Source: an uncultured Muribaculaceae bacterium
Lineage (GTDB): Bacteria > Bacteroidota > Bacteroidia > Bacteroidales > Muribaculaceae
Direction of reading: 5' to 3'
DNA: 43,931 bases
Assembly (NCBI GenBank): GCA_947179295.1
Contig: CAMXAZ010000021.1
Location: 1 to 43,931, forward strand
Each line of letters starts with the position of its first letter. Position 1 is the stretch's first letter. Below, piece by piece: positions 1-19,264 of this stretch. A program made the position numbers and the translations under genes. The notes under the pieces were generated by a model, which saw nothing but the letters and a program-made list of their open reading frames with translations, was not told the origin of the DNA and ran no database searches.

Positions 1-454
1 TAATCTATCCATAGGCACTTTTATTAAAGAGTTATTAATCTGTGAATTTTGAGATAAAACAGAGTGCAATTTTATCTTTAACTGCTTTCACAAAAAAGTG
101 TCATTCTTTATAAAGTGCCTTTGTTCCCTATATAGGAATTAGGGCAATTTAGACCGAATGACACGATTTTCAGTTATGACAGCAAAAGACACTAAACGCT
201 TCTGTTTTTATCTAAAGATGGGTGTGGGGTATTAGAGGTTACAGAGAAAACATGCTTGGGATATACAGGAACTTAAAATATTGCAGAATTTGGAATGTGC
301 CATATTAGAAATACTATATAAGAACGATTTTTTGAATAGAATGGGGAGGGGTATAAAAATAGAGGATAAGAATATTTGAGAATTAGGGTGCTATTTATTC
401 ATTTATAATGATTGGATAAAAAAACTATACTTATTACAGGAATAATAAACGCAG
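1..454. other. Noncoding AT-rich stretch with nested inverted repeats
   Basis: I see no credible coding frame here. The stretch holds a 9-bp inverted repeat (GTGTCATTC at 98-106, GAATGACAC at 156-164) that is almost concentric with the perfect palindrome CCTATATAGG at 127-136. A further inverted pair, GGCACTTT at 14-21 and AAAGTGCC at 112-119, lies around it. Such clustered symmetry is typical of replication origins or operator regions of mobile elements, but the role is inferred. It lies downstream of the last leftward gene of the element. Confidence 0.5.
98..164. repeat. Inverted repeat GTGTCATTC with central palindrome
   Basis: GTGTCATTC (98-106) and GAATGACAC (156-164) are exact inverted copies, and the palindrome CCTATATAGG (127-136) sits at their centre. 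The core GTGTCATT recurs at 4,199-4,206 in another noncoding gap of the element. TTTGTTCCCTA (120-130) recurs as its reverse complement at 4,245-4,255. Shared signals in two gaps suggest binding sites for one element-encoded protein. Confidence 0.55.
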
Positions 455-1108
455 TTATTTTATCTCACTCTTTGATTTTGAGGATAATATTATGTTAGGC
501 ACACCATATTGTAGTTTTAATTCTCGCTTACTTGAAATTTTCTGTTGAGAAAAATCTGGAGAAGAAAAGTATTCGTTATCCATTACCTTTATTTCTCCGT
601 TGGATTTAATTGATACTAAGTTTTGTAATTGGAGCTGTAATAGATACTTATTCAGAGTCGGTTTTGATATTATTAGTTTGGATAGTATAAGATTTGTTGT
701 TAGAGGTTCTTCACCATAGGTTTGCAAAAGTTTTAATTGTATTAGTAATCCTTTGGCTGAACTGTCAATATCTAAATCAACAAACGACCTATGTATAGTA
801 ATACTTTGAATTTCCATAGGTGGAATAATATAGAGGTTTCTTCGTGGAGAGAAACAAGGGTTTCCTGTTTCGGCATAAAAGTGTTTCTTGTTTAGATATT
901 CTCCAAGTTCATTTGTAAAATTTCCAGCGGTTTTCATCCCTGTTAATTCTGCAATATATTTGAGTGGCACTCTTGAATAATACCATTTATCACGAAAAAG
1001 TGAAACGCAGAAGAAACGGAATATGTTAATAGGTCGAAAATCTCCTATCATTGAATAATTGATGCTTGCCGTTTCATTGTAAGGTAAATTTTCTATCTTG
1101 TAACTCAT
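455..1108 (-). CDS. Unknown element protein, possible winged-helix C-terminal half
   Basis: This 217-residue protein has no family I recognise. Residues about 115-175 have the rhythm of a winged-helix DNA-binding domain: a helix rich in Leu, then LTTNLILSKLIISKPTLNKY as a likely helix-turn-helix, then a short beta wing (LVSIKSNGEIKV). The tail is Ser/Lys-rich. The first ATG at 1,108 overlaps the upstream 57-codon gene by 35 bases; an in-frame Met at residue 20 (1,051) would remove the overlap and may be the true start. It is the last gene of the leftward cluster in the window. A regulatory or replication-initiator role is possible from fold and context only. Confidence 0.6.
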   Translation of the reverse strand: MSYKIENLPYNETASINYSMIGDFRPINIFRFFCVSLFRDKWYYSRVPLKYIAELTGMKTAGNFTNELGEYLNKKHFYAETGNPCFSPRRNLYIIPPMEIQSITIHRSFVDLDIDSSAKGLLIQLKLLQTYGEEPLTTNLILSKLIISKPTLNKYLLQLQLQNLVSIKSNGEIKVMDNEYFSSPDFSQQKISSKRELKLQYGVPNIILSSKSKSEIK

Positions 1109-1247
1109 AAGTAGCTGATTGAGTATTATTGATAAATTTTAAATCTTTCTTTTCTCTTTCCATTTTGTAATAATAGGCTGTACCAAAATACAATTTAGCA
1201 TCTTTCCTATTATTAAAGATTTTTCCTGTCGGGATATGTATAATCAT
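1074..1247 (-). CDS. Small unknown element protein (57 aa)
   Basis: A short open frame runs from ATG at 1,247 to TGA at 1,076-1,074. It encodes 57 residues beginning MIIHIPTGKIFNNRKDAKLY. The segment NNRKDAKLYFG resembles the short helix-turn-helix-like repeats found in phage and homing-endonuclease-associated proteins (NUMOD1-like), where Asn/Lys-Asp-Ala-Lys leads into Phe-Gly; this is a resemblance by eye only. The protein is rich in Lys and Tyr and has no signal peptide or membrane segment. It lies between the helicase-like gene and the possible winged-helix gene in the same orientation and overlaps the latter by 35 bases, so the two are probably co-transcribed. Confidence 0.55.
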   Translation of the reverse strand: MIIHIPTGKIFNNRKDAKLYFGTAYYYKMEREKKDLKFINNTQSATYELQDRKFTLQ

Positions 1248-1389
1248 TATATTTAATTTTTAGTGTTGTAATCGCTTATATATTATAAAGTTAATAAAAT
1301 GTTTATTGATTGCTGCCTAAAATGAGCACGGATAACAAACTGACTAATGGGGATTATAATAAGTCCTATTTCCTAAGTTTGTCCTCTCG

Positions 1390-3138
1390 CTATACCAAGT
1401 CCTGAATGAGATAGTATCCTCTCTCTTTTTTAACTTTACAGGGGATTACCTCAAAGAACTGACTTATTGCATTTGCTCTTATTTTCTTCGATAGGTATAT
1501 ATCGAATTTTGAATATATCCGATTAAGTTCTTGTACTATAAACTTGTTTGAATAACGGCAGCCTATCTTGAAGCTGTTTTTAATGAGGTCTATAACTTCC
1601 ATTCCATTTCTTTTATTCATTATAAGAGCTTCCTTTATTTTCTTTTCTGAATATTTAAGTTGCTCTATAACAGTCTTACCCAGCGTCATGTAGGCTTCAA
1701 CTATAAAAGGGTCTATGGCTCTTATGTCTGTAATAATTCTTATGTCTGTTTCGGAGTATGGTTCTTTAAGTTGTGCTAAGATATTCACAATTTTTGCACG
1801 TTTCACTCGAATTGTAAATTTAGAGTGCGAAATAACAAGTTTGTCTATATCAGACGGATATATTCGGTTCTTAAAAGACAAAACAAATAAATCGCTTTTC
1901 AAATAGTTACTTTCGATTATATTATAATCCCCATAGGTGGATTGCACGCAGATGTTGTGAATTTTATTATCTATTTTGAAATAGTTAATCTCTCCGTTTG
2001 AAATATAATCAGAGAACGGTATTGACTTTAATGCTTCTGCAAAAGCGAATCGCGCCTCTTTTGTTGCCGCATTTTCGTAATATGTACTCATTACCTCATA
2101 GCAATGTCTGTGTGCAGATAATTCCCATTTGATACGGTCTCTGTCCTTATTGGGAATTTTTCTGTTCGTGTTAAATATATGGTCTGCAGAGTTTATACCA
2201 TTTCTAAATCTTCCTAATATCTGAATACAATCTGTATTCACATCAAGCCATGTATAATGCGTAGCAAATACATCTGTGATTAACAGCACATCGGGTTGAT
2301 ATGACAGTTCCAAATCAAAAGCATTGTAGAAGCGTGAAGTAAAGAATGTGATTTTTTTCATTTTATCCTCACACCAACTGTGATAAGCATTTGGGAAATT
2401 ATATTCTCCAATGAATTTCCGTACTCCTTTTTCAGAGCAGAATACCGCACAGTCATTTCCGATGTCTAACTTCTCTATAAGAGAATGTATCATATCCACA
2501 GAGTTAAGGAAAATACATATTTCATTTGTAGATGTATGTAATATATTCTTAATCTCCATATAAATGCTATTAGTATGAATAGCTGTGATATTATACCGAT
2601 AATTATAGGTCGGTAAAATTTCGATTTTTACAAATCCCTGTGATACGAAACGAGGGTCAGAAAACTCAATCGGAGTAGCAGAAACAAGAGCCTTATTCTC
2701 AAATAGAAAAAAGTCATTCATTGTTTCTGTCATTTCGGGTCTAAAATCTGCATCATCAATATATTGGTGAGCTTCATCGCACAACATAAAGAATGTGCTA
2801 TATAAGCTAATATTCAATTTCTGACAGGCTTTTTTTACCTTGTGATAGCTCTCCGGTGTTACCATTATCTTATGAAATGAGGTATCTGCAATTAGGCGTT
2901 TAATCACTTCATTTGTGCTTATACCCTCATATATACCAATAATATTTTTATGTTTCTTACATTTACTATCTATCACTGGCTTATTGGGTACAACAATTAT
3001 AGAGTGCCGTTCTGCCTTTATTTCGGCAGTTGTTGCTCCTATTCCTGTAATCTTCTTATAAAGAATAGTGTTAGACGGAATCAGAGGCAATATATCACAT
3101 AGATATTGTCCTTTATTAATTTTGTATTGGGTTTTCAT
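1390..3138 (-). CDS. DEAH-type SF2 helicase-like protein with altered P-loop
   Basis: This 582-residue protein carries most superfamily 2 helicase motifs in order: a P-loop position GIGATT (residues 32-37), DEAH (121-124), SATP (153-156, motif III) and QILGRFR (306-312, motif VI). In the P-loop the catalytic lysine of GxGKT is Ala35. Because the other motifs are intact this is probably a family trait rather than decay, but ATP hydrolysis is uncertain. Residues after about 330 match nothing I know. The start overlaps the stop of the upstream gene by four bases (ATGA), indicating translational coupling. A role in replication of the element, like origin-binding helicases of viruses and plasmids, is inferred. 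Confidence 0.75.
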   Translation of the reverse strand: MKTQYKINKGQYLCDILPLIPSNTILYKKITGIGATTAEIKAERHSIIVVPNKPVIDSKCKKHKNIIGIYEGISTNEVIKRLIADTSFHKIMVTPESYHKVKKACQKLNISLYSTFFMLCDEAHQYIDDADFRPEMTETMNDFFLFENKALVSATPIEFSDPRFVSQGFVKIEILPTYNYRYNITAIHTNSIYMEIKNILHTSTNEICIFLNSVDMIHSLIEKLDIGNDCAVFCSEKGVRKFIGEYNFPNAYHSWCEDKMKKITFFTSRFYNAFDLELSYQPDVLLITDVFATHYTWLDVNTDCIQILGRFRNGINSADHIFNTNRKIPNKDRDRIKWELSAHRHCYEVMSTYYENAATKEARFAFAEALKSIPFSDYISNGEINYFKIDNKIHNICVQSTYGDYNIIESNYLKSDLFVLSFKNRIYPSDIDKLVISHSKFTIRVKRAKIVNILAQLKEPYSETDIRIITDIRAIDPFIVEAYMTLGKTVIEQLKYSEKKIKEALIMNKRNGMEVIDLIKNSFKIGCRYSNKFIVQELNRIYSKFDIYLSKKIRANAISQFFEVIPCKVKKERGYYLIQDLV

Positions 3139-3563
3139 ATTCCTTTTGAGTTTAGATAATCCATTATTTGCAGATTTCTCTTTAAGCGAAATACAAGTTT
3201 GCCAAATAGGAAAAACACAATTATTGTAATATGGGGCATATACTCTCTAATAAATGGAACTCTTGAAACAGGATAGCCCTTATCTACTAAATCCTTTAGA
3301 ACCTTAGTTTGGTAGTCCGTGCCGAGAATGTCTCTTTTATTTGGATTAACTCCAAAATCATCATGTCTCCCTGTTTTAAGATAGTTTATAATCCATTCCA
3401 AACTCACATTGTTTATGAAGTATGGAAAATTTGCAACGCGCTCAGTACAGACTTCTATATAAGGGTTATCTTTCATTGTTATATCTAAATGTTCCTTAGA
3501 CTGCATAAGCTCCTTAATAAATATATGCGCATCGGAGTTGGTAAAATTTGGCAAATTTCTCAT
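3135..3563 (-). CDS. Unknown element protein (142 aa)
   Basis: I do not recognise this protein. It has a central stretch with many charged residues and a hydrophobic run near residues 110-122 (HITIIVFFLFGKLVF) that could be a single membrane helix or a buried strand. It sits immediately upstream of the helicase-like gene and shares an ATGA overlap with it, so the two are very likely made together and may form a complex. The gap to the gene upstream is five bases. The tight spacing argues that the frame is real despite the absence of a recognised family. Confidence 0.65.
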   Translation of the reverse strand: MRNLPNFTNSDAHIFIKELMQSKEHLDITMKDNPYIEVCTERVANFPYFINNVSLEWIINYLKTGRHDDFGVNPNKRDILGTDYQTKVLKDLVDKGYPVSRVPFIREYMPHITIIVFFLFGKLVFRLKRNLQIMDYLNSKGI

Positions 3564-3568
3564 CGTTC

Positions 3569-4156
3569 TTAAAGATTACTTATTTCACCCATTCCATTAT
3601 ATACTGTGTAATTGTCGATAGAACAGGCAGGCTGATTTAGTAGGTCATTCTCTGATGTCTCCTTATTGAAGAATTTGTTAATAGCTATTCTTACTCCCTT
3701 AGAAGCAGGAACAAACATCTCAATTACAGTATTGGCGTTTGGTCTGAATAAGATATGCTCATATACGTTCCCATTTTTAGAAACGAATCTTTCCCCAATC
3801 TCTATCTTATAGAGTTGTGTTAGTCGAAGCATGATAGAAAGATAAGTATCTTCTATTTCTGTTTTATTTATGATGCCGACACGGTGATTTTTGACTACAT
3901 AGTTATTTAACTTACTCAACTTCCCACACATTGTATCTACGATAGCGAAGAACAAATCTCTATCTATTGGGAGCGAAAGTGTGATAGTTGTATTATCATT
4001 ATACCAATACCTTAGTTTCACAGTTAAATAACCGTTATCAGCTCTTAACTGCATCTTTATCCCTGTTGGTGTTGCGTTGAAGCAACTTCGGATAAAGTTT
4101 AGCCCTGTCTCGCTTATTGGGGTTGTGAGTTCCGAGTAATTATTGAATGTCTGCAT
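3569..4156 (-). CDS. Unknown element protein (195 aa)
   Basis: This 195-residue protein has alternating hydrophobic/polar stretches that suggest a mixed alpha/beta soluble fold (for example LTVKLRYWYNDNTTITLSLP around residues 44-63). No signal peptide, membrane segment or catalytic motif is visible. It is the first gene of a tight three-gene unit with the 142-residue protein and the helicase-like protein (five-base gap, then an ATGA overlap). The 165 bases upstream contain a GTGTC inverted repeat and a sequence shared with the noncoding left edge of the window, so this unit may be regulated by an element-encoded protein. Function unknown. Confidence 0.65.
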   Translation of the reverse strand: MQTFNNYSELTTPISETGLNFIRSCFNATPTGIKMQLRADNGYLTVKLRYWYNDNTTITLSLPIDRDLFFAIVDTMCGKLSKLNNYVVKNHRVGIINKTEIEDTYLSIMLRLTQLYKIEIGERFVSKNGNVYEHILFRPNANTVIEMFVPASKGVRIAINKFFNKETSENDLLNQPACSIDNYTVYNGMGEISNL

Positions 4157-4177
4157 GAATTAAGCATTAAGTGTTAC

Positions 4178-4260
4178 TGCTTTCGCTGACACTTCGTTGT
4201 GTCATTGATTACGCTGCAAAGTTCGCTCAATTCGGCAGGGGTATTAGGGAACAAAAAAAT
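4178..4260. promoter_or_regulatory. Candidate operator region upstream of the helicase unit
   Basis: This gap contains GACAC (4,189-4,193) and GTGTC (4,199-4,203) as a short inverted repeat, and TAGGGAACAAA (4,245-4,255), the reverse complement of 120-130. A weak leftward -7 element, GAACTTTG on the minus strand (4,224-4,217), lies between them. The arrangement suggests repressor or initiator binding at a promoter, but no protein is assigned. Confidence 0.35.
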
Positions 4261-4321
4261 CCACTTTCATATTCCCCTTTAAGAAATACAGAAGCGGATT
4301 GTAAAAGTATGTGGTATTATT

Positions 4322-5170
4322 CTAACCGTATATCGTGTTAATAGTGTCTGTCTTTTGTTTACGATATAATTTTATGATTCCCTTTAGGTTTTCATCGTCT
4401 AAATCATAATCGGCATTGGTTGTCAGCTTGGTTAGATATGCTAACTTTGAGATTAGGCGTAATGTGCTTTTGGTCGTGTTGTTCCCTGCTTTTCTCTTTG
4501 CTGTAAACTGTGGATATAGATTAAAGAAGCATCGGAACATTTCAGTAAATAGTCCTATCTGTTTTGTATCTGCTAAATCTGATTCTGTGGTAGTGCCTAC
4601 ATTTAATAAGCTGTCTTTCTCCACAACAGATAGAGCCTGTTTGCAAAAATTGGCTATTGCTGATAGAGTATTAGGATTGCTGATATTAAGTGTTCTACCT
4701 TTAATATGCAGTGTTAATTTCATTTCTTGCTTGGGGATAACACCTTTAAAACTGTTTACTGATTTTTTATTTTGCTCTATGAAGTCTATTAGCCGTTCTA
4801 TTTCCTGTTTAGGAGTAGCGTTACATTGAAGTGTATTCAGAGTGCTACCGCTTACATAGTCAGATATGAATAAAAGTAGATACCAAAATTTTTCGGGGTC
4901 AATTTCCAAAGCACTAATTATATCAATTATACTCTCGTTGTTGTTACTGCTTGCCTTAATATAGTCCTCGTAACGAAAATATACGTTAAGTTTACCGTTA
5001 TTATATCTACGTTTGAAAATTAACGGTGCTTGCGATTCAACCTTATAAGGTGTTCCGTTTTCATCTAAAACTATATCGGGTGCAAACTCATTGGCTACGT
5101 TGATTACATATTCCAATAAGCTGTTTTCATCATTGCTATAATTATCTATTTGGAATCTATCTATCGGCAT
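4322..5170 (-). CDS. Unknown element protein (282 aa)
   Basis: I do not recognise this 282-residue, mostly alpha-helical, soluble-looking protein. It begins with an acidic, Asn-rich segment. A strand-like stretch at residues about 45-70 is followed by helical regions and a Lys/Arg-rich segment around residue 225 (AKRKAGNNTTKSTLR) that could touch nucleic acid. It is the first leftward gene after the element boundary and lies just downstream of a good -7 promoter element. A 165-base gap with repeats separates it from the next gene, so it may be a separate transcription unit or a regulator of the unit below. No function is proposed. Confidence 0.6.
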   Translation of the reverse strand: MPIDRFQIDNYSNDENSLLEYVINVANEFAPDIVLDENGTPYKVESQAPLIFKRRYNNGKLNVYFRYEDYIKASSNNNESIIDIISALEIDPEKFWYLLLFISDYVSGSTLNTLQCNATPKQEIERLIDFIEQNKKSVNSFKGVIPKQEMKLTLHIKGRTLNISNPNTLSAIANFCKQALSVVEKDSLLNVGTTTESDLADTKQIGLFTEMFRCFFNLYPQFTAKRKAGNNTTKSTLRLISKLAYLTKLTTNADYDLDDENLKGIIKLYRKQKTDTINTIYG

Positions 5171-5191
5171 TATCTATTCGCTTTCAATAGA

Positions 5192-5199
5192 CAAAATTA
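5192..5199 (-). promoter_or_regulatory. -7 promoter element for the first element gene
   Basis: On the minus strand this reads TAATTTTG, an exact match to the Bacteroidetes -7 consensus TAnnTTTG. The expected -33 TTG at about 20 bases is poorly matched. Transcription would begin near 5,186, giving a leader of about 15 bases before the ATG at 5,170. Confidence 0.45.
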
Positions 5200-5298
5200 A
5201 GCAAAAATTCTCGCTTATCGAAAATGTCTGTCCTATTATGAGCTATGACTTGCTACAAGCCTTAAAAAAATATTTTAAGCTAATCATCTGTAAAATAT

Positions 5299-5715
5299 CT
5301 ATTTATAAATATATGAGTAAATATATAAGAGTGAGCCGCCCCACTGGCGCGCTTTGAGCATGATCAGACGCAGCGGGCGGCCGGCGCGGCGCTCGGCCTC
5401 AAGAAGCGCTGCGAGTCTGCGCTGCGGGCGGTTGAGGCGGAAAGGGATGTCGCGCGAGGAGATCTTGTCGGTTATCACCACGCAGCTGACGGCCCAGAAG
5501 GGGAAGTCATATCTGAAGCGCAGGCGGGCGAAGTCGCGCTCCGAGCCTGCGAGCTGCAGTTTCGGGTCGTCAAGCATCTCGGCCGGAATCCAGTAGGTTT
5601 TTCCGCCGAAGCTGTAGGGGACGCGGGCGGGATCGGAGGCATCGCCGGTCACCGGATCGGGGTCTGCGGCAAGCGCGGCATTGCGCCGCGCGTTTTCAAG
5701 GAGTATTTCTTTCAT
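5299..5715 (-). pseudogene. Phage terminase large subunit, N-terminal fragment interrupted at Walker A
   Basis: The 138-residue frame ends in a terminase-type N-terminal region: a segment PFRLNRPQRRLAALLE followed by IMLKARQWGGS, which matches the Walker A region of Bacteroidetes phage large terminases (ARQ-x-G-[GK]-S). From residue about 127 the sequence turns into low-complexity AT-encoded residues (Leu, Tyr, Ile, Ser) and stops, where a full protein would run several hundred residues further with Walker B and a nuclease domain. The break coincides with the composition change at about 5,333, so the gene was split by the AT-rich element. It starts 14 bases after the structural gene upstream and was probably co-transcribed with it. 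The fragment cannot package DNA. Confidence 0.8.
5306..5326. repeat. Direct repeat TAAATATAT at the element edge
   Basis: TAAATATAT occurs at 5,306-5,314 and again at 5,318-5,326, a 12-base period with a GAG spacer, a few bases inside the junction with GC-rich phage DNA. Short direct repeats next to an integration edge are where a recombinase would be expected to bind. No recombinase gene is present in the window. Confidence 0.45.
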
Positions 5716-8204
5716 AAGTCAAAAGGTTTTTACTGCCCGATGCGGAAGTCTCCGACTGCTACGCGGGCGGTGAGCGATAGCGTGAAGCGGTGACGGTGGG
5801 GAGTGTGGAGAACAACCGGAGGCAGATGGGTCAGCAGCCCGGCGATCTCGTAGGACGCAAGCAGATCTGAGTAGTCACCGCCGCAGCCGTTGTCGCCGAG
5901 CAGACTGACGCAGCCTTCACTCACCTGCCCTCTGAAAGGCATCACAAAGCGTCGGCAAAGCGCTGACGGTCCGCCGGGACTGACCGAGACCGAGGCCGCG
6001 AAGCCTATCTCGCATTCCTCATCAAGCTCTTGGGTGAGATCATAGAGCCTGCCGTCGGCTCCTGCGCCCCACAGTCCGGGCGGATGGCTGAGGAGCGAAG
6101 CAAGAGGCTGACAGCTGCGGGTGAAGCGCACACGGCCGTCAGGCGAGGTGACGGCCACCGGATCTGAGGCCGCGGCGGGGAAGCACCACAGCTCATCGGC
6201 GGCGCCTGAGTAGCCGAGTCTGACGGCTCCGGCCGAGGGCCTGAGAGTGGTGACACGGCGCCCGCTCACGCTGACCAGATCGCCTCCGGCAATGGCGGCG
6301 ACCGATGCCGAGGTAACGCAGACTGCCTCACTGCAGGAAGTGGGGCGCGGATCGAGGGTGCGCACCGTCAGGCGGCTGCGCGAGGAGTTGACAGTCAGAC
6401 TCTGTATGCCGGACTGCCCGAAGAGATAGAAGCGTGAGCTTTCAGAGTCCCAGCCTGAGGCTCCTCCTACAGCGGCTGTGATGGCTGCCGGGGCTGCTCC
6501 GGCGTTTTCCACGGCGGCCTGAGGCGAAAGCGGTGAGGCAAGGGTGCTGACGGCAAGCATTCCGGGAAAACGGCGCGGCACGGGGGCTGAGGCGGGGAGC
6601 ACGAAGGCCGGAAGCGTTTCGGCAAGCTCCACCGGAGCGGCCGAGGGGTGGAGCCAGTAGGCCATCGAGCCTGAGGGATCGGGCCGGAGACTGACGCGGA
6701 GCACCGAGCGGCCGAAATAGAGCCTCATCTCAACCGCGTCAGGCGAGGGATAGACCAGCAGCGGCGACAGGAGGCTGACGGCAGGGCTTTTCCCTACGGC
6801 GCTGCGGACCACTGACGATCCGTCGGCAAAGACAACTTTCACGGCCATTGGCTGAACCTCGCCGGAGCCGCTGTCAAGCTTCACGGCCATTTCGGCCGGC
6901 AGGCTGCCGCTGAAACGCCGGGCCGACAGTCCGCCGGCCACTATGCAGTCGCCGCTGAGGCCCATGACAGATGCGCTCATCACATGGGGCGGACTCAGCG
7001 CGCGAATGGCCTCGCCGACAGGAGTCAGAGGCTTCACCGGTGCGCCCGTCACTGAGCGCAGGGCTTTGAGATCGGCCCGGCAGTCGCGGCGGTCGGCATA
7101 CCAGGGGGTTTCAAGCCCCTCCCACTCTCCGGCCGCGCTGTCGAAGCGGGCCGAGCCGAGGGTTTCGAGCGCGCCGCTGTCAAGACGGGCAAGTACGGCG
7201 GCCACCTGCGAGCTGAGCAGCGTGGCCGGAGCGGCCGGTGAGGCGAGGCTGTCATGCACTCCCGGCAGGCGCAGCGAGAGCACTGCCGAGGTGGCCGTGA
7301 ACGAGCCGAGGGTGTGGGCGGCACGGAGGTTCTCTTCAAGCGGATGGAGCTGCGGGCTTACCTGGAGCTCGACGCTGCTGACCGTCCGGGCCCACAGTCC
7401 GTCAAGACTGCCGCGCAGACGCAGGCTGAATGTGCGGGCGGTGAGAGTAGTGGCCGCGACCTCGCTGAGAGAGCCGCCGCTGAGGCTGAAGGCGGCTCCG
7501 GTGAGCTGCGGTCCGCTGTCAGGGCCGAGGAGCACGGGCTGGGAGGTGTAGATGACACAGCCGTCGACCCCGCGGAGGCGGTAGCGGGCTATGACGGGCT
7601 GAAAGAACACCCGCCGGGCCACTGCCCTGTCGCCGATGGCGAGATAGGCTTCAGTCAGCGCCGACTGCATGGAGGCAAGATCGGCCGACGTGAGACCGGC
7701 GGAGCGCGAACTGTAGCTGCCGCGGAGGCTGCGGGCATCGATCGTGGCTGAGACCAGGCCTTGGTCAATGCGCTCTATGGTCAGAGGCGGCGGGAGTTCA
7801 GAGGCACTGCGGGCTGTCCAGAGTCCGCTGAGGCTGTCGCGGCTCAGTATCTGAGGGTCTTCACCCTCGGAGGTCATTAGCAGAAGACTTTCGCCCGTGG
7901 CCACGGCACAGCGGGGAGTGCCTGAGGCTCCGGCGGGACGGTAGACTTCCTGACCGTCAAGGCAGAGGAGTCCGCTGTCATCGGCAAAGAAGAGGGTGAG
8001 CACTCCGGCGGAGTCGCGGAAAACTCCGCCGGGCAGAAGCCTGGCGCCGGGAATGGCCTGGGGCGTGAGGCAGAGAGGCGGTCCGACAGGCACGAGGGAG
8101 CTGCCTGCGGCGGCGGGACGCAGATTGTGGCAACGGCTGACTGATCCGTCATCGCGCAGCGGGCCAATAGGGAAACGGAGAGCTGGTGGAGGTGTGGTTT
8201 TCAT
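5334..8204 (-). mobile_element. GC-rich prophage-derived block
   Basis: Two leftward genes, a putative virion structural protein and a truncated terminase, lie in DNA visibly more GC-rich than either neighbour. No lysogeny, integrase, portal or capsid gene lies within the window. The remaining prophage genes, if any, would be beyond the AT-rich element, to the left of the window. Codon use rich in Ala, Ser, Gly and Pro distinguishes it from host genes. Confidence 0.65.
5730..8204 (-). CDS. Putative phage virion structural protein (824 aa)
   Basis: This large protein is rich in Ala, Ser, Leu, Gly and Pro, with little charge and many short beta-strand-like segments, suggesting a repetitive all-beta fold. 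The N-terminus (FPIGPLRDDGSVSRCHNLRP, then a Leu-Val-Pro-Val-Gly motif) resembles large proteins in Bacteroidetes prophages whose N-termini read roughly as Cys-x-Asn-Leu-Arg-Pro followed by Pro-Val-Gly. That recollection and its place 14 bases upstream of a terminase support a virion or tail-associated role. No signal peptide, membrane helix or enzyme motif is visible. The ATG at 8,204 follows a promoter-like element by about 100 bases. Identification is by context as much as by sequence. Confidence 0.6.
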   Translation of the reverse strand: MKTTPPPALRFPIGPLRDDGSVSRCHNLRPAAAGSSLVPVGPPLCLTPQAIPGARLLPGGVFRDSAGVLTLFFADDSGLLCLDGQEVYRPAGASGTPRCAVATGESLLLMTSEGEDPQILSRDSLSGLWTARSASELPPPLTIERIDQGLVSATIDARSLRGSYSSRSAGLTSADLASMQSALTEAYLAIGDRAVARRVFFQPVIARYRLRGVDGCVIYTSQPVLLGPDSGPQLTGAAFSLSGGSLSEVAATTLTARTFSLRLRGSLDGLWARTVSSVELQVSPQLHPLEENLRAAHTLGSFTATSAVLSLRLPGVHDSLASPAAPATLLSSQVAAVLARLDSGALETLGSARFDSAAGEWEGLETPWYADRRDCRADLKALRSVTGAPVKPLTPVGEAIRALSPPHVMSASVMGLSGDCIVAGGLSARRFSGSLPAEMAVKLDSGSGEVQPMAVKVVFADGSSVVRSAVGKSPAVSLLSPLLVYPSPDAVEMRLYFGRSVLRVSLRPDPSGSMAYWLHPSAAPVELAETLPAFVLPASAPVPRRFPGMLAVSTLASPLSPQAAVENAGAAPAAITAAVGGASGWDSESSRFYLFGQSGIQSLTVNSSRSRLTVRTLDPRPTSCSEAVCVTSASVAAIAGGDLVSVSGRRVTTLRPSAGAVRLGYSGAADELWCFPAAASDPVAVTSPDGRVRFTRSCQPLASLLSHPPGLWGAGADGRLYDLTQELDEECEIGFAASVSVSPGGPSALCRRFVMPFRGQVSEGCVSLLGDNGCGGDYSDLLASYEIAGLLTHLPPVVLHTPHRHRFTLSLTARVAVGDFRIGQ

Positions 8205-13144: not shown

Positions 13145-13250
13145 CCAATTAGGCCTATTAGGCAAATTCGGCCAATTAGACTAAAACCAATTTCCCTCAG
13201 CCACTCCAATTAGCCTAATCAGACTAATTAGCCTGATCAGACCAATTGGC
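13145..13250. repeat. Degenerate 9-bp tandem repeat of palindromic units (CYAATYAGN)
   Basis: Two blocks keep a 9-base register: 13,145-13,180 (CCAATTAGG, CCTATTAGG, CAAATTCGG, CCAATTAGA) and 13,206-13,250 (CCAATTAGC, CTAATCAGA, CTAATTAGC, CTGATCAGA, CCAATTGGC). Most units contain a near-palindrome around AATT or ATCA. It fills the space between two terminators and codes for nothing evident. A slipped-strand repeat or protein-binding array is possible. Confidence 0.7.
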
Positions 13251-13265
13251 CCAACCCCAAAAGCC

Positions 13266-13313
13266 CCAAAAAAGAAAGCGCTTTCAGGCAGATCAATCAC
13301 CTGAAAGCGCTTT
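13266..13313 (-). terminator. Strong terminator of the DUF4831 gene
   Basis: AAAGCGCTTTCAGG (13,275-13,288) and CCTGAAAGCGCTTT (13,300-13,313) form a perfect 14-bp stem with an 11-base loop. On the minus strand it is followed by CTTTTTTGGGG. A second hairpin (13,321-13,348, TAAGAGGTTGTT/AACAATCTCTTA) lies between it and the stop codon. Confidence 0.85.
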
Positions 13314-13362
13314 ATGCTTTTAAGAGGTTGTTAAAAAACAATCTCTTAATAATCCTGAGTTC

Positions 13363-14457
13363 TTATTCCGTCACCGTCCCAAGCTCGCGGACAGCACCTG
13401 TCAGCGGATTGAAATGCAGATAAGACGGAGCCTTCTTGTTGGTAAACAGGCTCGGATCAAGCCCGAAGACAACACCATACTGCGCCACATCGAAAGTATC
13501 CTCGGCAAGAGTCTCGTCGTCATAGCTCAGAGTAACACGCGCAGTGCCGGGAATGCGGTAAGCCACACCTCCCTTGGGGAAAGTCTTGGTAATGCCCTTC
13601 TCATTGACCGGCAGCTCGCCGCGGGTCTGCGGAGTGATCGAGATATAGATCGGCGCTCCGGAAAGATCATTGGCATCCACAAGGCCTTCCAAGGCCGACA
13701 GGCGGGCAACCACCTTGCGGCTCACAGCTCCGTCGTCGGGCAGATAGACCGTGTAGGTGCGGACCTCGACCGACTTCTGGACAGTGCCGAGAAACATCGC
13801 CGTCAGAGCCTCTTCCTGCGAGGCAAGCTGATCGAGGGCAAGCTTCATGGCAGCGCCGTCAGAGGGCATGGCGTCGGCCTGACCGGATATGATCTCGTTG
13901 CGGTTGTTGCGGAACTCATAGATCTTGTCGGCGGCAAGCTGCGCGCGCTTTGCCAGTGACTTGCTCTGGATCATCTCAGGCGTGATGGCCTGCTGCGCCA
14001 CCGGAAGCTGCAGAATGGTCGGTTCGGCCTCTACCGGCTGCGGAAGCGGCGAGAGACTGACTGTGGCCTCATAGGAGTCATCGTTGACCGACAGCGGAAA
14101 ATTCCGGTCGCTCACGGTCATGTAAGTGCCCGTTCCGCCCTTGAATGTGGCCAGATAGCGCTCCTTCTCGTCGGCGATGGCAATAGGGTTGACCACCGCC
14201 TCGGTGATGCGCCAGCTCGTCGACGGCTTGAGAATCGGAGTGGCGTTGAGATAACGGCGCGCATACTGATAGAACTCTCCGGGAGTGCTGACGGTCTTTT
14301 CAACCGCCACTGTGACCTCAAAGGCGGTCAGCGGCAGAGTGTAGATCAGGCCGTATTCGCTGGCCTTTGTCGCGCTAAGTTTTGTTGATGTCTGGGCAGC
14401 GGCCGGAACAGCAGCGGCGGCGGCTCCGAGCAGCAGTATTGATAGTAGCTTTTTCAT
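13363..14457 (-). CDS. DUF4831 family secreted protein
   Basis: The 364-residue product starts with a signal peptide (MKKLLSILLLGAAAAAVPAAAQ, cleavage near residue 21) and matches what I know of the Bacteroidetes family DUF4831: an early YTLPLTAFEV strand, a TPGEFYQYARRYL segment and a C-terminal GVAYRIPGTARVTL segment. The function of the family is unknown; it is periplasmic or outer-membrane associated by its signal peptide. Residues 155-215 are Ala/Gln/Lys-rich and helical, probably a coiled linker between two beta-rich halves. It lies 75 bases downstream of nnr in the same direction with no promoter visible between, so it may be co-transcribed with it, and it ends at a strong terminator. 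Confidence 0.8.
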   Translation of the reverse strand: MKKLLSILLLGAAAAAVPAAAQTSTKLSATKASEYGLIYTLPLTAFEVTVAVEKTVSTPGEFYQYARRYLNATPILKPSTSWRITEAVVNPIAIADEKERYLATFKGGTGTYMTVSDRNFPLSVNDDSYEATVSLSPLPQPVEAEPTILQLPVAQQAITPEMIQSKSLAKRAQLAADKIYEFRNNRNEIISGQADAMPSDGAAMKLALDQLASQEEALTAMFLGTVQKSVEVRTYTVYLPDDGAVSRKVVARLSALEGLVDANDLSGAPIYISITPQTRGELPVNEKGITKTFPKGGVAYRIPGTARVTLSYDDETLAEDTFDVAQYGVVFGLDPSLFTNKKAPSYLHFNPLTGAVRELGTVTE

Positions 14458-14532
14458 CTTGACTGTTATTGCTGTGAATTATGACAGATCTGTTTTCAGG
14501 AAGCCCTGCGGTGAGCACCCGGCCTGACGGCA

Positions 14533-16050
14533 TCAGGCGCCGAGAATCGACTTGATGGCCTTGCCGGTGGCGGCGGCTATGTCGCCCGCCGTGGTTCCGT
14601 ACTCGCCCTCTTCGGCAGCGGCTATGTCGCCCGCAAGACCGTGGATATAGACTCCGGCGGTAGCGGCCGTCTCCGATTTATAGCCCTGGGCAAGGAGAGC
14701 GGTGATGATGCCCGTGAGCACATCCCCGCTGCCGGGAGTGGCCATCGCCGACGAGCCGGTGGAGTTGAAAAACACCTTGCCGTCGGGACGCACCGTGGCG
14801 CTGTAACGGCCTTTGAGCACTATGATCAGCTTGTATTTGTGGGCCACTTCGAGAGCTTTCAGCAGACGGGTCTCCGCCGAAGCCTGCGAGCCGAAAATGC
14901 GGTCGAACTCCACCGAATGGGGTGTCAGTATCGACCCCGGTGTCAGATGGTCGATCAGCGCCGGATTGCGGGCTATGATGTTGAGCGCGTCGGCATCGAG
15001 AACCATCGGGCGCTTGATGGTCTTGATCAGAGTCTCAAGCGCGCCCTTGGTGGCATCGTTGGTGCCTATGCCGGGGCCGGCTCCGATAGCCGTGTAGTTG
15101 AAGCGCGGGGTCATGTCGGAAATTACGTTCTCCTCGCGGTCGGGCAGGAAAAGCGCCTCCGGGACTGAATTCTGAATCACGCCGAAACCGCAGCGCGGCG
15201 AGTGGACCGTCAGCTTGCCTACACCTGCGCGCAGAGCACCGCGGGCAGCCATGACGGCGGCTCCCATCATGCCGTAGCAGCCGGCAAAGAGCAGCGCATG
15301 GCCGAAATCGGCTTTGGAGCAGAAATCAGGGCGGCGTTTGAGCACCCGGCAGACGTCGTCTTTCTCTATGAGATAATATTTCGTGGCGGTTTCCTCGATG
15401 GCCTTGCGGCTCAGACCGATATCTACAGTCTTCCACCGCCCCACAAGCTCGGCGTTGTCGCTAAGGAAGAATGCGAGACGCGGAAACTGTACGGCTATGG
15501 TGAGGTCGGCGTGGACCACGTTGCGCGCGAGCACACGGGTGTTCCAGTCGCCGAACATGCCTGAGGGCACGTCGATTGACACTACCGTAGCGCCAGACTC
15601 GTTGATATAGCGCGCCATAGCCATGTAGCCACCCTCAAGCGGATTGCGCAGCCCGGTTCCGAAAAGACCGTCGATCACAAGATGGTCGGGGGTAAGGGGC
15701 GGAATGTGGGCGGTGTGCACTATCTCTGTCATCGAGACATTGCCCATGCGCATCAGCTCCTCGCGGGCCATACGGCAGTCGCGCGACAGAGAGTCGCCCT
15801 TGACATTGATGAGCACCACGTGGGGATTGAAGCCTGCTTCGATCAGCAGCTTGGCCACAATCAGGGCATCGGCGCCGTTGTTGCCCGCACCGGCGAAGAC
15901 CATAGTGGGCTTCGACGGACGCCAGCGGCCGAGAATCTCATTGACCACCCCTTCGGCCACCCGATGGATAAGCTCCATAGAGCTTACACCCTCGTCGTCG
16001 ATGGTGACGCGGTCAATATGGCGTATATTTTCAGTAGTAAATATTTTCAT
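14533..16050 (-). CDS. nnr: Bifunctional NAD(P)H-hydrate epimerase / ADP-dependent dehydratase
   Basis: This enzyme repairs hydrated NADH and NADPH: the N-terminal YjeF domain interconverts the R and S epimers and the C-terminal ribokinase-like domain dehydrates the S form using ADP. Visible motifs are FAGAGNNGADA and IDGLFGTGL in the epimerase half, then GHALLFAGCYGMMGAAV, TPHSVEFDRIFG and PGSGDVLTG in the dehydratase half. An upstream in-frame ATG at 16,119 would add 23 residues (starting MGRRRKSD) unlike the family. I chose 16,050 because MKIFTTENIRHID is the usual start. A clear promoter lies about 90-120 bases upstream. The product is 505 residues, the normal length for the fused form, and cytoplasmic. 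Confidence 0.92.
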   Translation of the reverse strand: MKIFTTENIRHIDRVTIDDEGVSSMELIHRVAEGVVNEILGRWRPSKPTMVFAGAGNNGADALIVAKLLIEAGFNPHVVLINVKGDSLSRDCRMAREELMRMGNVSMTEIVHTAHIPPLTPDHLVIDGLFGTGLRNPLEGGYMAMARYINESGATVVSIDVPSGMFGDWNTRVLARNVVHADLTIAVQFPRLAFFLSDNAELVGRWKTVDIGLSRKAIEETATKYYLIEKDDVCRVLKRRPDFCSKADFGHALLFAGCYGMMGAAVMAARGALRAGVGKLTVHSPRCGFGVIQNSVPEALFLPDREENVISDMTPRFNYTAIGAGPGIGTNDATKGALETLIKTIKRPMVLDADALNIIARNPALIDHLTPGSILTPHSVEFDRIFGSQASAETRLLKALEVAHKYKLIIVLKGRYSATVRPDGKVFFNSTGSSAMATPGSGDVLTGIITALLAQGYKSETAATAGVYIHGLAGDIAAAEEGEYGTTAGDIAAATGKAIKSILGA

Positions 16051-16138
16051 GATCCGGAGATGAGTCTGTGAGTGACGGTAGCCCGACGGCCGGCTGTCGC
16101 TTTTCCGCCTGCGGCCCAATCACTTCTATTGCAGATTA

Positions 16139-16169
16139 CAAAATTACAAAACAAGATTGTCATGAGCAA
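16139..16169 (-). promoter_or_regulatory. Promoter for nnr
   Basis: On the minus strand TTG (16,169-16,167) is followed after 20 bases by TAATTTTG (16,146-16,139), an exact Bacteroidetes promoter arrangement. The predicted transcript starts near 16,133, about 83 bases before the chosen nnr start. Confidence 0.7.
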
Positions 16170-16194
16170 CCCCACCCCGAAAAAAAAGCCGCCA

Positions 16195-16302
16195 TATAAA
16201 AAGAAGCGAAAGAAGCGAGACTACCCGACTAAGTGGTAGCCTCGACTTTACCTTTTTTTAGAGTGCTAATTGGAGCGACTAAAGTCTCCAAAAGCACTAT
16301 CA
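16195..16302 (-). ncRNA. Candidate structured RNA downstream of the AbiF-like gene
   Basis: Read on the minus strand, a -7 box is followed by two hairpins and a T-rich tail. Hairpin 1 pairs AGTGCT (16,293-16,298 with 16,262-16,267) outside a GGAG/CTCC stem. Hairpin 2 pairs ten bases (16,235-16,244 with 16,216-16,225, one mismatch) and runs into TTCTTTCGCTTCTTTTT. Both loops carry nearly the same sequence, CGACTAAAGT (16,276-16,285) and CGACTAAGT (16,226-16,234) on the plus strand. There is no reading frame. From memory, HEPN-type AbiF proteins are often encoded next to structured RNAs that act as antitoxins, so this is the natural partner of the gene at 16,369-17,247. It could instead be the terminator and a fortuitous hairpin. 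Confidence 0.6.
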
Positions 16303-16307
16303 TATTG

Positions 16308-16315
16308 CAAAGGTA
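16308..16315 (-). promoter_or_regulatory. -7 promoter element for the candidate RNA
   Basis: The minus strand reads TACCTTTG, matching TAnnTTTG, and would start transcription near 16,302, just before hairpin 1. A TTG lies 15 bases upstream, closer than the usual 19-21, so promoter strength is uncertain. Confidence 0.45.
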
Positions 16316-16368
16316 ATACTTTTACCCTTGCAAAAAAATTTTTGAACCGTAATTTTGTGTTAAGAATC

Positions 16369-17247
16369 TCATATAGTGAGGAAATTAGGTATTAATGGCT
16401 TAAGTTTAGGAGAAACAGAACAAAGATCTTCATAAAGATTCTTTATCTGTTTGCCCATATCATCGGCTCTATTGGCAGAAACCCGCTCCATCACATACTT
16501 AATAACCCGAAGTGCACCTATTATGTTGTTACGTTCTGATGGATTATAGGCTGCCGGACCGCGACGAATTGCCAAAGGAAGACGCAAATCGTACAAGAGA
16601 AGTCCGTGAGCGCAAGCATTACGGACTTGCCTGATGGTGTGCATATAGCTTTCAAACGTAACGACCTGTCGGATGCCGAACTTATGAGCGATGAAGATTT
16701 TATCTTCACGATCTTTCAGTTGCTCGTAAAGTTTCATCACTGCTCCAAAAGTCATAAATTCCAGAGTTTTCCACGACGGAGCGAAGCGGTCATCGGGATT
16801 CTTCTGATGATGGCGGCGTATGACCGGATTGCGTTTGAAGTCGGGGGTATAGACTTTACTCTCAAAGTCGCGGGCATAGGCGCGACCAACAACCGATGGA
16901 CTTACAAACCATATCGGTGTAGAATTATACTTGTTGGAAAGGTGGTATATCAACGAAGTGCGGAAAGCTATTTCGATGCGGTTGAGATAGCGCATTAGCA
17001 ACAGTCGCAGATCAAAATCGAAATAATATAAATTGACTGCGTCCTCAAACGATGCGCCCTCAATGTATTCATGAGTACGGTTGCGCAAATCAGGATAAGA
17101 CTTTTCAAACGGGAAAAGATAAAAACCAAGGCGATAGTACCCTATGTCGAGTAGTATTTCTCGCGCTTTGTCTTTATCAGCGATAGCGAGACCTCTTGAT
17201 TCAAGAAGGCCAAGCTGCCGGTCTATTGTAGTTGCCGATTTCGTCAT
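16369..17247 (-). CDS. AbiF/AbiD-type abortive infection protein (Abi_2 family, HEPN)
   Basis: This 292-residue protein has the hallmarks of the Abi_2 family: an N-terminal segment with IGYYRLGFYLFPFE (about residues 34-47), an LYYFDFDLRLLLMRYLNRIEIAFRT-type core (about 73-97), and near the C-terminus RNACAH, an R-x4-H motif (Arg209 to His214) typical of HEPN ribonucleases. Members stop phage spread by shutting down the host or cutting RNA; some are RNA-controlled toxins. The gene is noticeably more AT-rich than its neighbours, consistent with transfer as a defence gene. It lies between GH97 and nnr with its own weak promoter, and a candidate structured RNA follows 66 bases after its stop. 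RNase activity is inferred from the motif. Confidence 0.88.
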   Translation of the reverse strand: MTKSATTIDRQLGLLESRGLAIADKDKAREILLDIGYYRLGFYLFPFEKSYPDLRNRTHEYIEGASFEDAVNLYYFDFDLRLLLMRYLNRIEIAFRTSLIYHLSNKYNSTPIWFVSPSVVGRAYARDFESKVYTPDFKRNPVIRRHHQKNPDDRFAPSWKTLEFMTFGAVMKLYEQLKDREDKIFIAHKFGIRQVVTFESYMHTIRQVRNACAHGLLLYDLRLPLAIRRGPAAYNPSERNNIIGALRVIKYVMERVSANRADDMGKQIKNLYEDLCSVSPKLKPLIPNFLTI

Positions 17248-17264
17248 ATACAGATTTGAGAGAT

Positions 17265-17272
17265 CGAAGTTA
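17265..17272 (-). promoter_or_regulatory. Weak promoter element for the AbiF-like gene
   Basis: The minus strand reads TAACTTCG (one change from TAnnTTTG), with TTC 20 bases upstream at the -33 position. Transcription would start near 17,258, giving a very short leader of about ten bases. Confidence 0.35.
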
Positions 17273-17329
17273 CAGTAAAAGATGGATAGCGGGAACAGTC
17301 AGACTTCATGCGGCCACCCCGAAACTTTT

Positions 17330-19264
17330 TCATCTGATCACTACGAAGCCTCCGCCGGGCTGCATGGTGACTGACGGGGCTTTTTTGCCGGCTGTCAGAT
17401 CTTTTCTGACAGGATTCCGGTCGGCGTCGTCGCAGTAGAGCCTATAGGCATCACCCTTGGCGAGGCAGTCAAGAGTGACCGCTACGGGCTTGTCGGTGGC
17501 ATTTACCCCGGCTATGTACCACTTGTCGGCATGGCGGCGCGCCAGCACCACATAGCGTCCCGGATAGCCTTCGATGAAGCGGGTTTCGTCCCAGACGGTG
17601 GGCACCTCGCGCAGATAGTCCATGCAGACGGCCGGCGCGTCCTCAAGGTTGTAGGGTGTTATGGCGAAGTTCTGCACCGGGTTCTGAAACAGTACTGTTG
17701 TAGCCAGCTGAAAGGCATCGCTGGTCATGCGGCGGTGACCGTCACGGTTGTTCCGGCTGATATACTTGTTCATGAAGCAGCCGCCGAACTCCATGCAGCC
17801 CACACTGTTGCGGATGAAGGGGTGGAGTGTGGCGTTGAAAGCCTCGTCGTCACAGGCCTGCTGGGTGAAATACATGTTCTCGCTTGCCCTCACGGCCTCG
17901 CTCCCCACATAGTTGGGATACATCCGCTCCCATCCGCGCGGCAGTGTGCAGCCGTGGAATATCACCATCAGCCCGTGGTCATCGGCATCGGACAGTATCG
18001 CCTCATACAGGCGCATGGTCTCCTGCTTGTCACCGCCGAAGAAATCCACCTTTATGCCCTTCACTCCAAGGCTGCGCAGCCAGCGCATCTCGGCCTTGCG
18101 CCTGATGGGATTGTCCATGCAGTTTATCGGGCCCTGCTCTATGTCGTTCCAGTAGCCTGAGGAGCTGTACCACATTATAAGGCTCACACCCTTCGAGCGG
18201 GCATATGCGGCAAGCTCCGGCAGACGATCGCGCCCGATCTGGGTGTCCCACCAGTTGTCTACAAGCACATATCTGTAGCCCATCTCATGGGCGAAGTCAA
18301 TGTATGTCTTCTGGTCCTCCATGTTGATGCTCTTGTCCTGCCATACAATCCAGCTCCATGTACCGCAACCCGGCTCATAGCTGTGGGCCGAGTCATAGCG
18401 CGGGCTGACGAGATCCCAAGGCACGGTGGTCTCCACTATCGGCGCGAGGTCGCGGCCCACGGTGATAGTGCGCCAGGGAGTATGGCCGGGGAGAGCCATC
18501 GCGGCTCCCGCATTGCCGTTGCCGTTGTTTTCCTCCGGCATTGGATAGGCTATGGTGTAGAGTCCGTCGAGCCTGTAGTCACTCAGATGCGAACCGCAGT
18601 AGTAACTGTCGACCCCGGTTTCTGAAAGGAGCACCCAGCCGTCATCGCCTACCCTGAACAGACAGGGGAAAGTGTAGCCCTGTCCGTACTGCGAGACGGC
18701 GTCCATAGGCGCATCGGCCGTGTAGACCTCTTCATAAGACGGACTCGTGCGCTTCCAGTTCTCCATAGCCGTGCGCTGTGGCGTAAGGAAAGTGGTGGTG
18801 CCGGCCGGAAAACGGAAACCGGAGGCCTCGGAACTTATGTAGATCGCTCCCGTGTCGCCCTGACGGGGTATGCGGTAGCGGAAAGCAACGTCATGGTCCG
18901 AAACCCGGAACTCCACCTCCCAGCGGCCTCCGCCGGGAGTCTCGAAAGCCACCGTCGCCTCGTTGGCACGATAGTCTACCGAGCTCTTCTTGATGCGGTC
19001 AAGCGTGTAATGTTCCTCAACCTTCCTGACCTCCGAGGGGACGATGGAAGACGACGTGGTGAAGGAGCCTATGTTTGACTCGAAGCCCAAAGGCGACTGG
19101 CGGAGCATGGTCTTTCCGTCGAGAGTCACCGAGTAGCACGGACGACCCTCCGCGTCAAGATCGACGCTGACATCAAGTTTGCCGTCCGGGCCTGTGATGT
19201 TGAAAGCAAAAGCTGTTGATATGCCGGCAAGCATTGCAACGACCGGCAGCACTGTTCTTTTCAT
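17330..19264 (-). CDS. Glycoside hydrolase family 97, probably a retaining alpha-galactosidase type
   Basis: The 644-residue protein has a signal peptide (to about residue 20) and the GH97 plan: an N-terminal beta-sandwich, a (beta/alpha)8 barrel, and a small C-terminal beta domain. Barrel signatures include YVLVDNWWDTQIGRDRL, GVSLIMWYSSSGYW, GIKVDFFGGD and HGCTLPRGWERMYPN. Asp407 in KVDFF and Glu462 in RASEN are 55 residues apart, the spacing I remember for the nucleophile and acid/base of retaining GH97 alpha-galactosidases; inverting SusB-type alpha-glucosidases lack this Asp. It should release terminal alpha-linked sugars in the periplasm. It is a monocistronic gene by spacing, not in a Sus-type locus. 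Confidence 0.9.
   Translation of the reverse strand: MKRTVLPVVAMLAGISTAFAFNITGPDGKLDVSVDLDAEGRPCYSVTLDGKTMLRQSPLGFESNIGSFTTSSSIVPSEVRKVEEHYTLDRIKKSSVDYRANEATVAFETPGGGRWEVEFRVSDHDVAFRYRIPRQGDTGAIYISSEASGFRFPAGTTTFLTPQRTAMENWKRTSPSYEEVYTADAPMDAVSQYGQGYTFPCLFRVGDDGWVLLSETGVDSYYCGSHLSDYRLDGLYTIAYPMPEENNGNGNAGAAMALPGHTPWRTITVGRDLAPIVETTVPWDLVSPRYDSAHSYEPGCGTWSWIVWQDKSINMEDQKTYIDFAHEMGYRYVLVDNWWDTQIGRDRLPELAAYARSKGVSLIMWYSSSGYWNDIEQGPINCMDNPIRRKAEMRWLRSLGVKGIKVDFFGGDKQETMRLYEAILSDADDHGLMVIFHGCTLPRGWERMYPNYVGSEAVRASENMYFTQQACDDEAFNATLHPFIRNSVGCMEFGGCFMNKYISRNNRDGHRRMTSDAFQLATTVLFQNPVQNFAITPYNLEDAPAVCMDYLREVPTVWDETRFIEGYPGRYVVLARRHADKWYIAGVNATDKPVAVTLDCLAKGDAYRLYCDDADRNPVRKDLTAGKKAPSVTMQPGGGFVVIR

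Follow-up and report, generated by a model that had tools for sequence, protein, structure and literature searches.

A conserved two-hairpin RNA encoded behind an AbiF-type HEPN gene, a candidate antitoxin of a family outside Rfam

The window analyzed here, a 43,931-nucleotide stretch of DNA from an uncultured, gut-type Muribaculaceae bacterium, carries an AbiF/AbiD-type HEPN gene and, directly 3' of it on the same (minus) strand, a structured RNA element whose fold and promoter box are conserved in relatives. We consider it likely that the two form a compact AbiF-type toxin/RNA-antitoxin module working like a type III system, in which a small folded RNA most likely keeps the toxin switched off. 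The features of the locus, in window coordinates, are as follows.

16369..17247, minus strand: abi gene for an AbiF/AbiD-type HEPN protein of 292 aa, whose residues 209-214 form the catalytic motif RNACAH
16331..16334, minus strand: possible -33 element TTTG, judged by sequence and weak in the window itself
16308..16315, minus strand: -7 promoter box of the RNA, TACCTTTG, of the form TAnnTTTG
16195..16298, minus strand: candidate antitoxin RNA of about 100 nt, both ends placed from the sequence alone
16262..16298, minus strand: hairpin 1, with a near-invariant AGUG/CACU base, a covarying inner stem and the apical loop ACUUUAGUCG
16245..16261, minus strand: A-rich linker; in the predicted fold of the window RNA it pairs with the U-rich tail at the 3' end
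16216..16244, minus strand: hairpin 2, with a 10-bp covarying stem and the apical loop ACUUAGUCG, in a terminator-like position
16195..16215, minus strand: U-rich 3' end, a probable terminator tail by sequence and fold
16183..17313, no strand: 1,131-bp insert with the abi gene and the RNA gene as its sole content
16172..16182, no strand: left copy of the 11-bp direct repeat CCACCCCGAAA, present as a single copy at the empty site
17314..17324, no strand: right copy of the same repeat, likewise single at the empty site

The 292-aa protein matched Pfam Abi_2 (PF07751) at E 1.6e-44 with 152.8 bits against a cut-off of 25.6, and the PADLOC model that it matched was AbiD (E 1.7e-52), while an NCBIfam profile search of the protein returned no match. 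The R-x4-H HEPN motif that the first-pass annotation had claimed at Arg209 to His214 was exact (R209-NACA-H214), and RxxxxH was unbroken in 100 of the 103 Abi rows compared. The predicted structure resembles that of PbAbiF, so that Abi_2 domain, HEPN motif and predicted AbiF fold all place the protein in the Abi_2 / AbiF-AbiD family; by analogy the gene probably encodes an RNA-cutting toxin. Assignment to Cas13 and type VI systems, which have two HEPN domains and a CRISPR array, was rejected, given 292 residues, one RxxxxH and no repeats nearby (no direct repeats of at least 12 bp within 200 bp were found in the region 15000-18500).

Downstream of the gene, the -7 box, two hairpins and T-rich end were present as first described, with no frame of at least 60 aa on the RNA strand within the RNA. 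TAnnTTTG is the -7 box of Bacteroidota promoters; a generic sigma-70 scan of the window did not report the TACCTTTG box, and a pattern-based terminator scan of the window did not report hairpin 2 and the U-rich end. The spacing from the -33 element to the -7 box is 15 nt in the window and, by eye, about 19-21 nt in relatives. The two apical loops (16285-16276 and 16234-16226) repeat the same sequence, just as the first-pass annotation gave them, a likeness that is not general, since the loops differ in another subtype. Folding gave z -4.1 for 126 nt and z -5.9 for 104 nt, with none of 200 shuffles as stable in either case, and pairing between linker and tail was similar in many, not all, folds of the relatives' RNAs. 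Both covariance models described below, R1 and R2, matched the window at 16206-16302.

A contig scan of genomes yielded 10 relatives, those with a name being mostly Bacteroidales MAGs, with one (L006) labelled Clostridium and the distant L010 from a gammaproteobacterium. The same RNA follows the abi gene in nine of them with 67-85% identity, although in L009 only the C-terminal third of that gene is left. A protein search of 397 genomes of the family found matches in 116, from which close, middle and distant members were taken, and model R1, trained on 10 close loci only, recovered the RNA in the more distant members in a search of 86 loci. Among 50 chosen loci, 49 had an R1 match at E <= 0.25, with 52 matches altogether. 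Across these 52 rows, 96.4% of cells formed standard pairs versus 72.3% in shuffled alignments, both sides had changed in 16 of 20 pairs (in hairpin 2, in all 10 of 10), and there were 250 compensatory cells versus 76 in shuffles. The covariation score of 0.636 versus 0.194 shuffled, reached by 0 of 500 shuffles, comes from an alignment fitted to the structure, which favors such a test. Sliding the partners by 1-3 columns lowered pairing to 24-46% (at most 46.2% of cells). A MAFFT alignment of the ten closest loci (98.0% paired versus 94.6%, and only two double-change pairs, as in most shuffles) says little because the sequences are too uniform. Independently of any alignment, 48 RNAs folded singly gave a median z of -4.4, and 47 of the 48 fell below -2. 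The hairpin conservation and compensatory changes beside homologous abi genes that a covariance search had been proposed to look for are therefore strongly evident. The TAnnTTTG box lay at most 14 nt from the RNA match in 56/56 abi-linked RNAs, a set that includes broken toxins and L172 from another family. Based on this conservation of structure and promoter, with compensatory changes, we concluded that the RNA element is beyond chance.

The RNA is paired with one clade of toxins. A 97-row Abi_2 tree splits with support 100 into 36 rows, among them PbAbiF and the product of a second Abi_2 gene in the window genome, and 61 rows, which include the window protein. The new RNA occurred in 52 of these 61, downstream of the gene in 49 and upstream in three (L039, L070, L089); the grouping of the 52 has an SH-aLRT of 90, under the 95 mark. 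The weak matches at L070 (E 0.16) and L082 (E 0.037) were backed by eye, and at L035 the contig end falls inside the RNA. By sequence, then, a structured noncoding RNA gene appears fixed beside the toxin gene in 52/52 clade rows. The remaining nine rows (L080, L081, L084, L085, L087, L088, L090, L092, L093), in which no RNA was visible to R2, branch beside the RNA clade and keep the HEPN motif; hence such toxins do not always have the RNA beside them. Several of these nine loci seem by eye to have common neighbor genes, and they are possibly a fixed or differently controlled lineage. In 35 loci of the first, 36-row group, R2 found nothing better than E 0.25 (0.041 at the same place in a smaller search), and in 9 of 10 such loci, judged by eye, one hairpin immediately precedes the gene, as with the abiF RNA already described. 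In the window genome, the other Abi_2 gene (L120, G000:C42) has, by eye, a single hairpin of this kind in its 5' leader; the Rfam model RF03085 had no match at E <= 1 in the region upstream of it.

At the window site, abi gene and RNA occur together or not at all. The relative G090 lacks the module but shares the flanking DNA at about 94-95% identity; window segments 13226-16182 and 17314-18679 align side by side there, with 11 bases of G090 common to both alignments. Either an insertion with target duplication or, in G090, an excision between the repeats could explain this difference. The insert has a GC of 0.427, compared with 0.59 and 0.58 for the 2 kb on its two sides, and no space for a transposase gene. 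The first-pass annotation had spoken of a transferred, AT-rich defence island; a low-GC insert there is, and "island" is too large a term for one module. Elsewhere in the window, positions 1-5500 are AT-rich (GC 0.31-0.38), adjoin a GC-rich ORF at 5730-8204, and look like a separate mobile region. At another locus, L171 (positions 899-976 and the 190 bases upstream), the RNA survives as a damaged remnant that seems to be joined to part of a different subtype; by eye it follows an apparent tRNA gene whose 3' end is repeated, a possible old integration site.

At the wider ranks, R2 matched 4 of 247 genomes of the order (two of those four from other families) and 1 of 296 genomes of the phylum, the window's own. 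Within the family, R2 found 87 RNAs in 66 of 397 genomes, 52 of the counted RNAs having served to train it. By coordinates, 54 stand behind 50 listed abi genes and 33 have no listed abi gene; one of the latter runs into a contig end (G219), three have abi remnants (G228, G088, G289), and 29 have no recognizable abi sequence, as judged by tblastn with 103 Abi proteins against flanks of about 1.5 kb where the contig allowed. Elsewhere the RNA is kept beside six broken toxins, namely L009 with its C-terminal third, L025 with H214R, L086 with a shortened motif, L091 and L094 with stops, and L207 in two pieces. Conversely, 15 of 65 listed window-type abi places lacked an R2 hit at 1e-3, and sorting them (the nine RNA-less rows, three with the RNA upstream, two contig ends, one weak match) revealed an asymmetry of loss: no intact toxin without RNA was found in the RNA-bearing clade, a statement from which the nine RNA-less rows are left out.

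The first-pass annotation had named homologous RNA at loci without an abi gene as a finding that would refute its antitoxin reading. Such RNAs proved common, and they are also the main attraction of the view that this is an sRNA, selfish or regulatory, with its own job, often found beside abi, for which the solitary state is the normal form. The 33 RNAs without an intact toxin (32 from the family, the contig-cut one excluded, plus L173 from another family, which retains a 20-aa abi stretch) keep their fold, with 94.1% of cells paired, and still covary; at least 18 of the 20 pairs are formed in 28 of 33. This well-kept structure could reflect a role of their own. Against an independent sRNA stand the presence of the RNA in 52/52 clade rows, the coming and going of toxin and RNA as one unit at the window site, and the resemblance, by eye, of solitary copies to toxin-linked subtypes. 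In addition, the -7 box lay within 14 nt in only 19 of the 33, being missing in 14, versus 56/56 beside abi (Fisher 1.1e-7, kinship ignored); with the six broken toxins removed the latter count is 50/50 (Fisher 3.1e-7, kinship again ignored). The count hinges on the 14-nt limit, and at 16 nt one more solitary RNA has a box (20/33). We consider an independent sRNA improbable and read the solitary RNAs as toxin loss, the RNA often outliving the toxin in related genomes, based on the three RNAs with abi remnants, the 14 of 33 without a box, and a clade with no RNA-less intact toxin. In four of the 50 abi genes a second RNA stands in tandem. Second copies of a different subtype, immediately after the first, occur beside one abi gene each at L042 1177-1270, L077 280-375 and L069 245-331 (all on the minus strand), and two of these three lack their own -7 box. 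A weak additional match (E 0.0036) was seen at L002 169-249 (plus strand), several kb from the abi-linked copy.

It is somewhat less probable still that the hairpins serve the abi mRNA merely as its terminator or a processed 3' UTR and regulate nothing. The RNA does follow the gene on its own strand and has a U-rich end after hairpin 2, but a promoter box stands right before it in all 56 loci, hairpin 1, which termination does not need, is conserved and covaries, three clade members carry the RNA 5' of the gene, and the RNA is found without an abi gene. A small protein antitoxin encoded in the intergenic stretch is very unlikely: one 24-aa frame overlaps the RNA, but its ATG is missing in the 9 relatives compared (the start codon alone, by eye), and the sequence changes keep base pairs. 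The RNA also lies about 145 nt upstream of the next gene, for an NAD(P)H-hydrate repair enzyme on the same strand, yet a 5' leader or riboswitch of that gene is refuted by the empty site of the near relative G090, which keeps the gene and not the RNA, and is further opposed by the variation among loci of the sequence beyond the RNA, leaving it the least credible of these readings.

The reading as a structured RNA antitoxin thus gained support, the role being predicted from conservation, covariation and precedent. We propose that the AbiF of the window would fold as a HEPN RNase and act as a dimer, as PbAbiF and AbiFCd suggest, and would arrest growth by cutting RNA. An RNA of roughly 100 nt would be transcribed from its own promoter directly 3' of abi, and, folded into two hairpins, it would bind AbiF and hold the toxin inactive; the toxin would be freed once the RNA is lost, as might happen if a phage shuts off transcription in the host. 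In the window clade the RNA gene usually sits behind the toxin with its own promoter, and does not form a 5' leader as in RCd22/AbiFCd. Gene and RNA travel together, and after decay of the toxin the RNA often lingers and may then lose its promoter. The two like-looped hairpins of the window subtype would suit one RNA for two protomers. A bolder proposal, which we regard as speculative and rather doubtful, is a separate toxin-antitoxin lineage with a new RNA family, in which solitary and tandem RNAs would act in trans as stand-alone immunity against incoming AbiF toxins and accumulate side by side, a possible first step to the RNA arrays between AbiF and Cas13.

For AbiF toxins, the candidate would mean a second RNA partner with no detectable sequence likeness to the known one, its gene usually shifted to the toxin's other side with its own promoter box. 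It is now testable how one HEPN fold switched its RNA partner, whether one two-hairpin RNA serves an AbiF dimer, and whether solitary RNAs guard against foreign AbiF. The RNA family, its placement and its solitary copies were not found described in the literature surveyed, coverage of which was incomplete.

Among known systems, those of the ToxIN type likewise have a protein RNase toxin held by a structured RNA, with a different toxin fold and antitoxin repeats upstream. In type III systems the antitoxin RNA lies upstream of the toxin in one operon, whereas here it lies 3' with its own box in the window and 49 of 52 rows. The nearest counterparts in Rfam are the abiF RNAs (RF03085), also hairpin RNAs tied to Abi_2 genes in the same bacterial family, but RF03085 is a 37-nt single hairpin and the window RNA has two. 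Of 198 family genomes, 22 contained RF03085, with 27 hits in total; 15 hits precede a listed Abi_2 match by 29-214 nt, 10 have no listed Abi_2 match on the contig, and two follow one (at 328 nt in G012 and 1,297 nt in G113), so a 3' position is rare but known for this RNA. The G012 match (G012:C253:24302-24338, plus strand, 37.0 bits) stands 3' of its Abi_2 match, so the other branch of AbiF may likewise have evolved an RNA placed after the gene. With permissive settings, the RF03085 model found no match at E <= 5 in 401 window bases, while the same settings found both RCd22 motifs in 401 bases of a C. difficile phage (E 0.011 and 0.61). A gathering-level Rfam search of 19 loci of various subtypes gave no match, a test uninformative by itself because the phage control was missed too: the RCd22 motifs in phage CD2301 (L217 430-517) score 26.6 and 19.5 bits, under the RF03085 gathering score of 37. 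By these comparisons with RF03085 and the Rfam models, the window RNA belongs to a family outside Rfam, and our covariance model detects an RNA that Rfam misses; even RCd22 falls under the gathering score.

Publications since 2025 describe AbiF working with an RNA antitoxin, and two reports (PMC12373285, PMC12737573) contain the link of AbiF toxins to RNA antitoxins and to Cas13 that the first-pass annotation had named, Cas13 being proposed to derive from AbiF toxins. PbAbiF is there a symmetric dimer with one RNA per protomer (PMC12737573); the PbAbiF-AbiFr RNP (PDB 8VZ6) represents the other main branch of our tree, across the split with support 100. In the report on AbiFCd/RCd22 from C. difficile prophages (PMC12373285), AbiFCd is toxic, and RCd22 binds and neutralizes it in a stem-dependent manner, both in cis and in trans. 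The precedent fits the protein more fully than the RNA, since the window RNA is not RF03085 and no sequence similarity was found. RCd22, as described there, is the upstream 5' leader of abiF with a shared promoter and has two RF03085 motifs, whereas in the window the RNA follows the gene, has a promoter box to itself and lacks a match to any Rfam family. Nevertheless, AbiFCd is likewise an Abi_2 HEPN toxin (motif RNQCAH), and RCd22 is, like the window RNA, an RNA of about 100 nt with two motif hairpins (PMC12373285).
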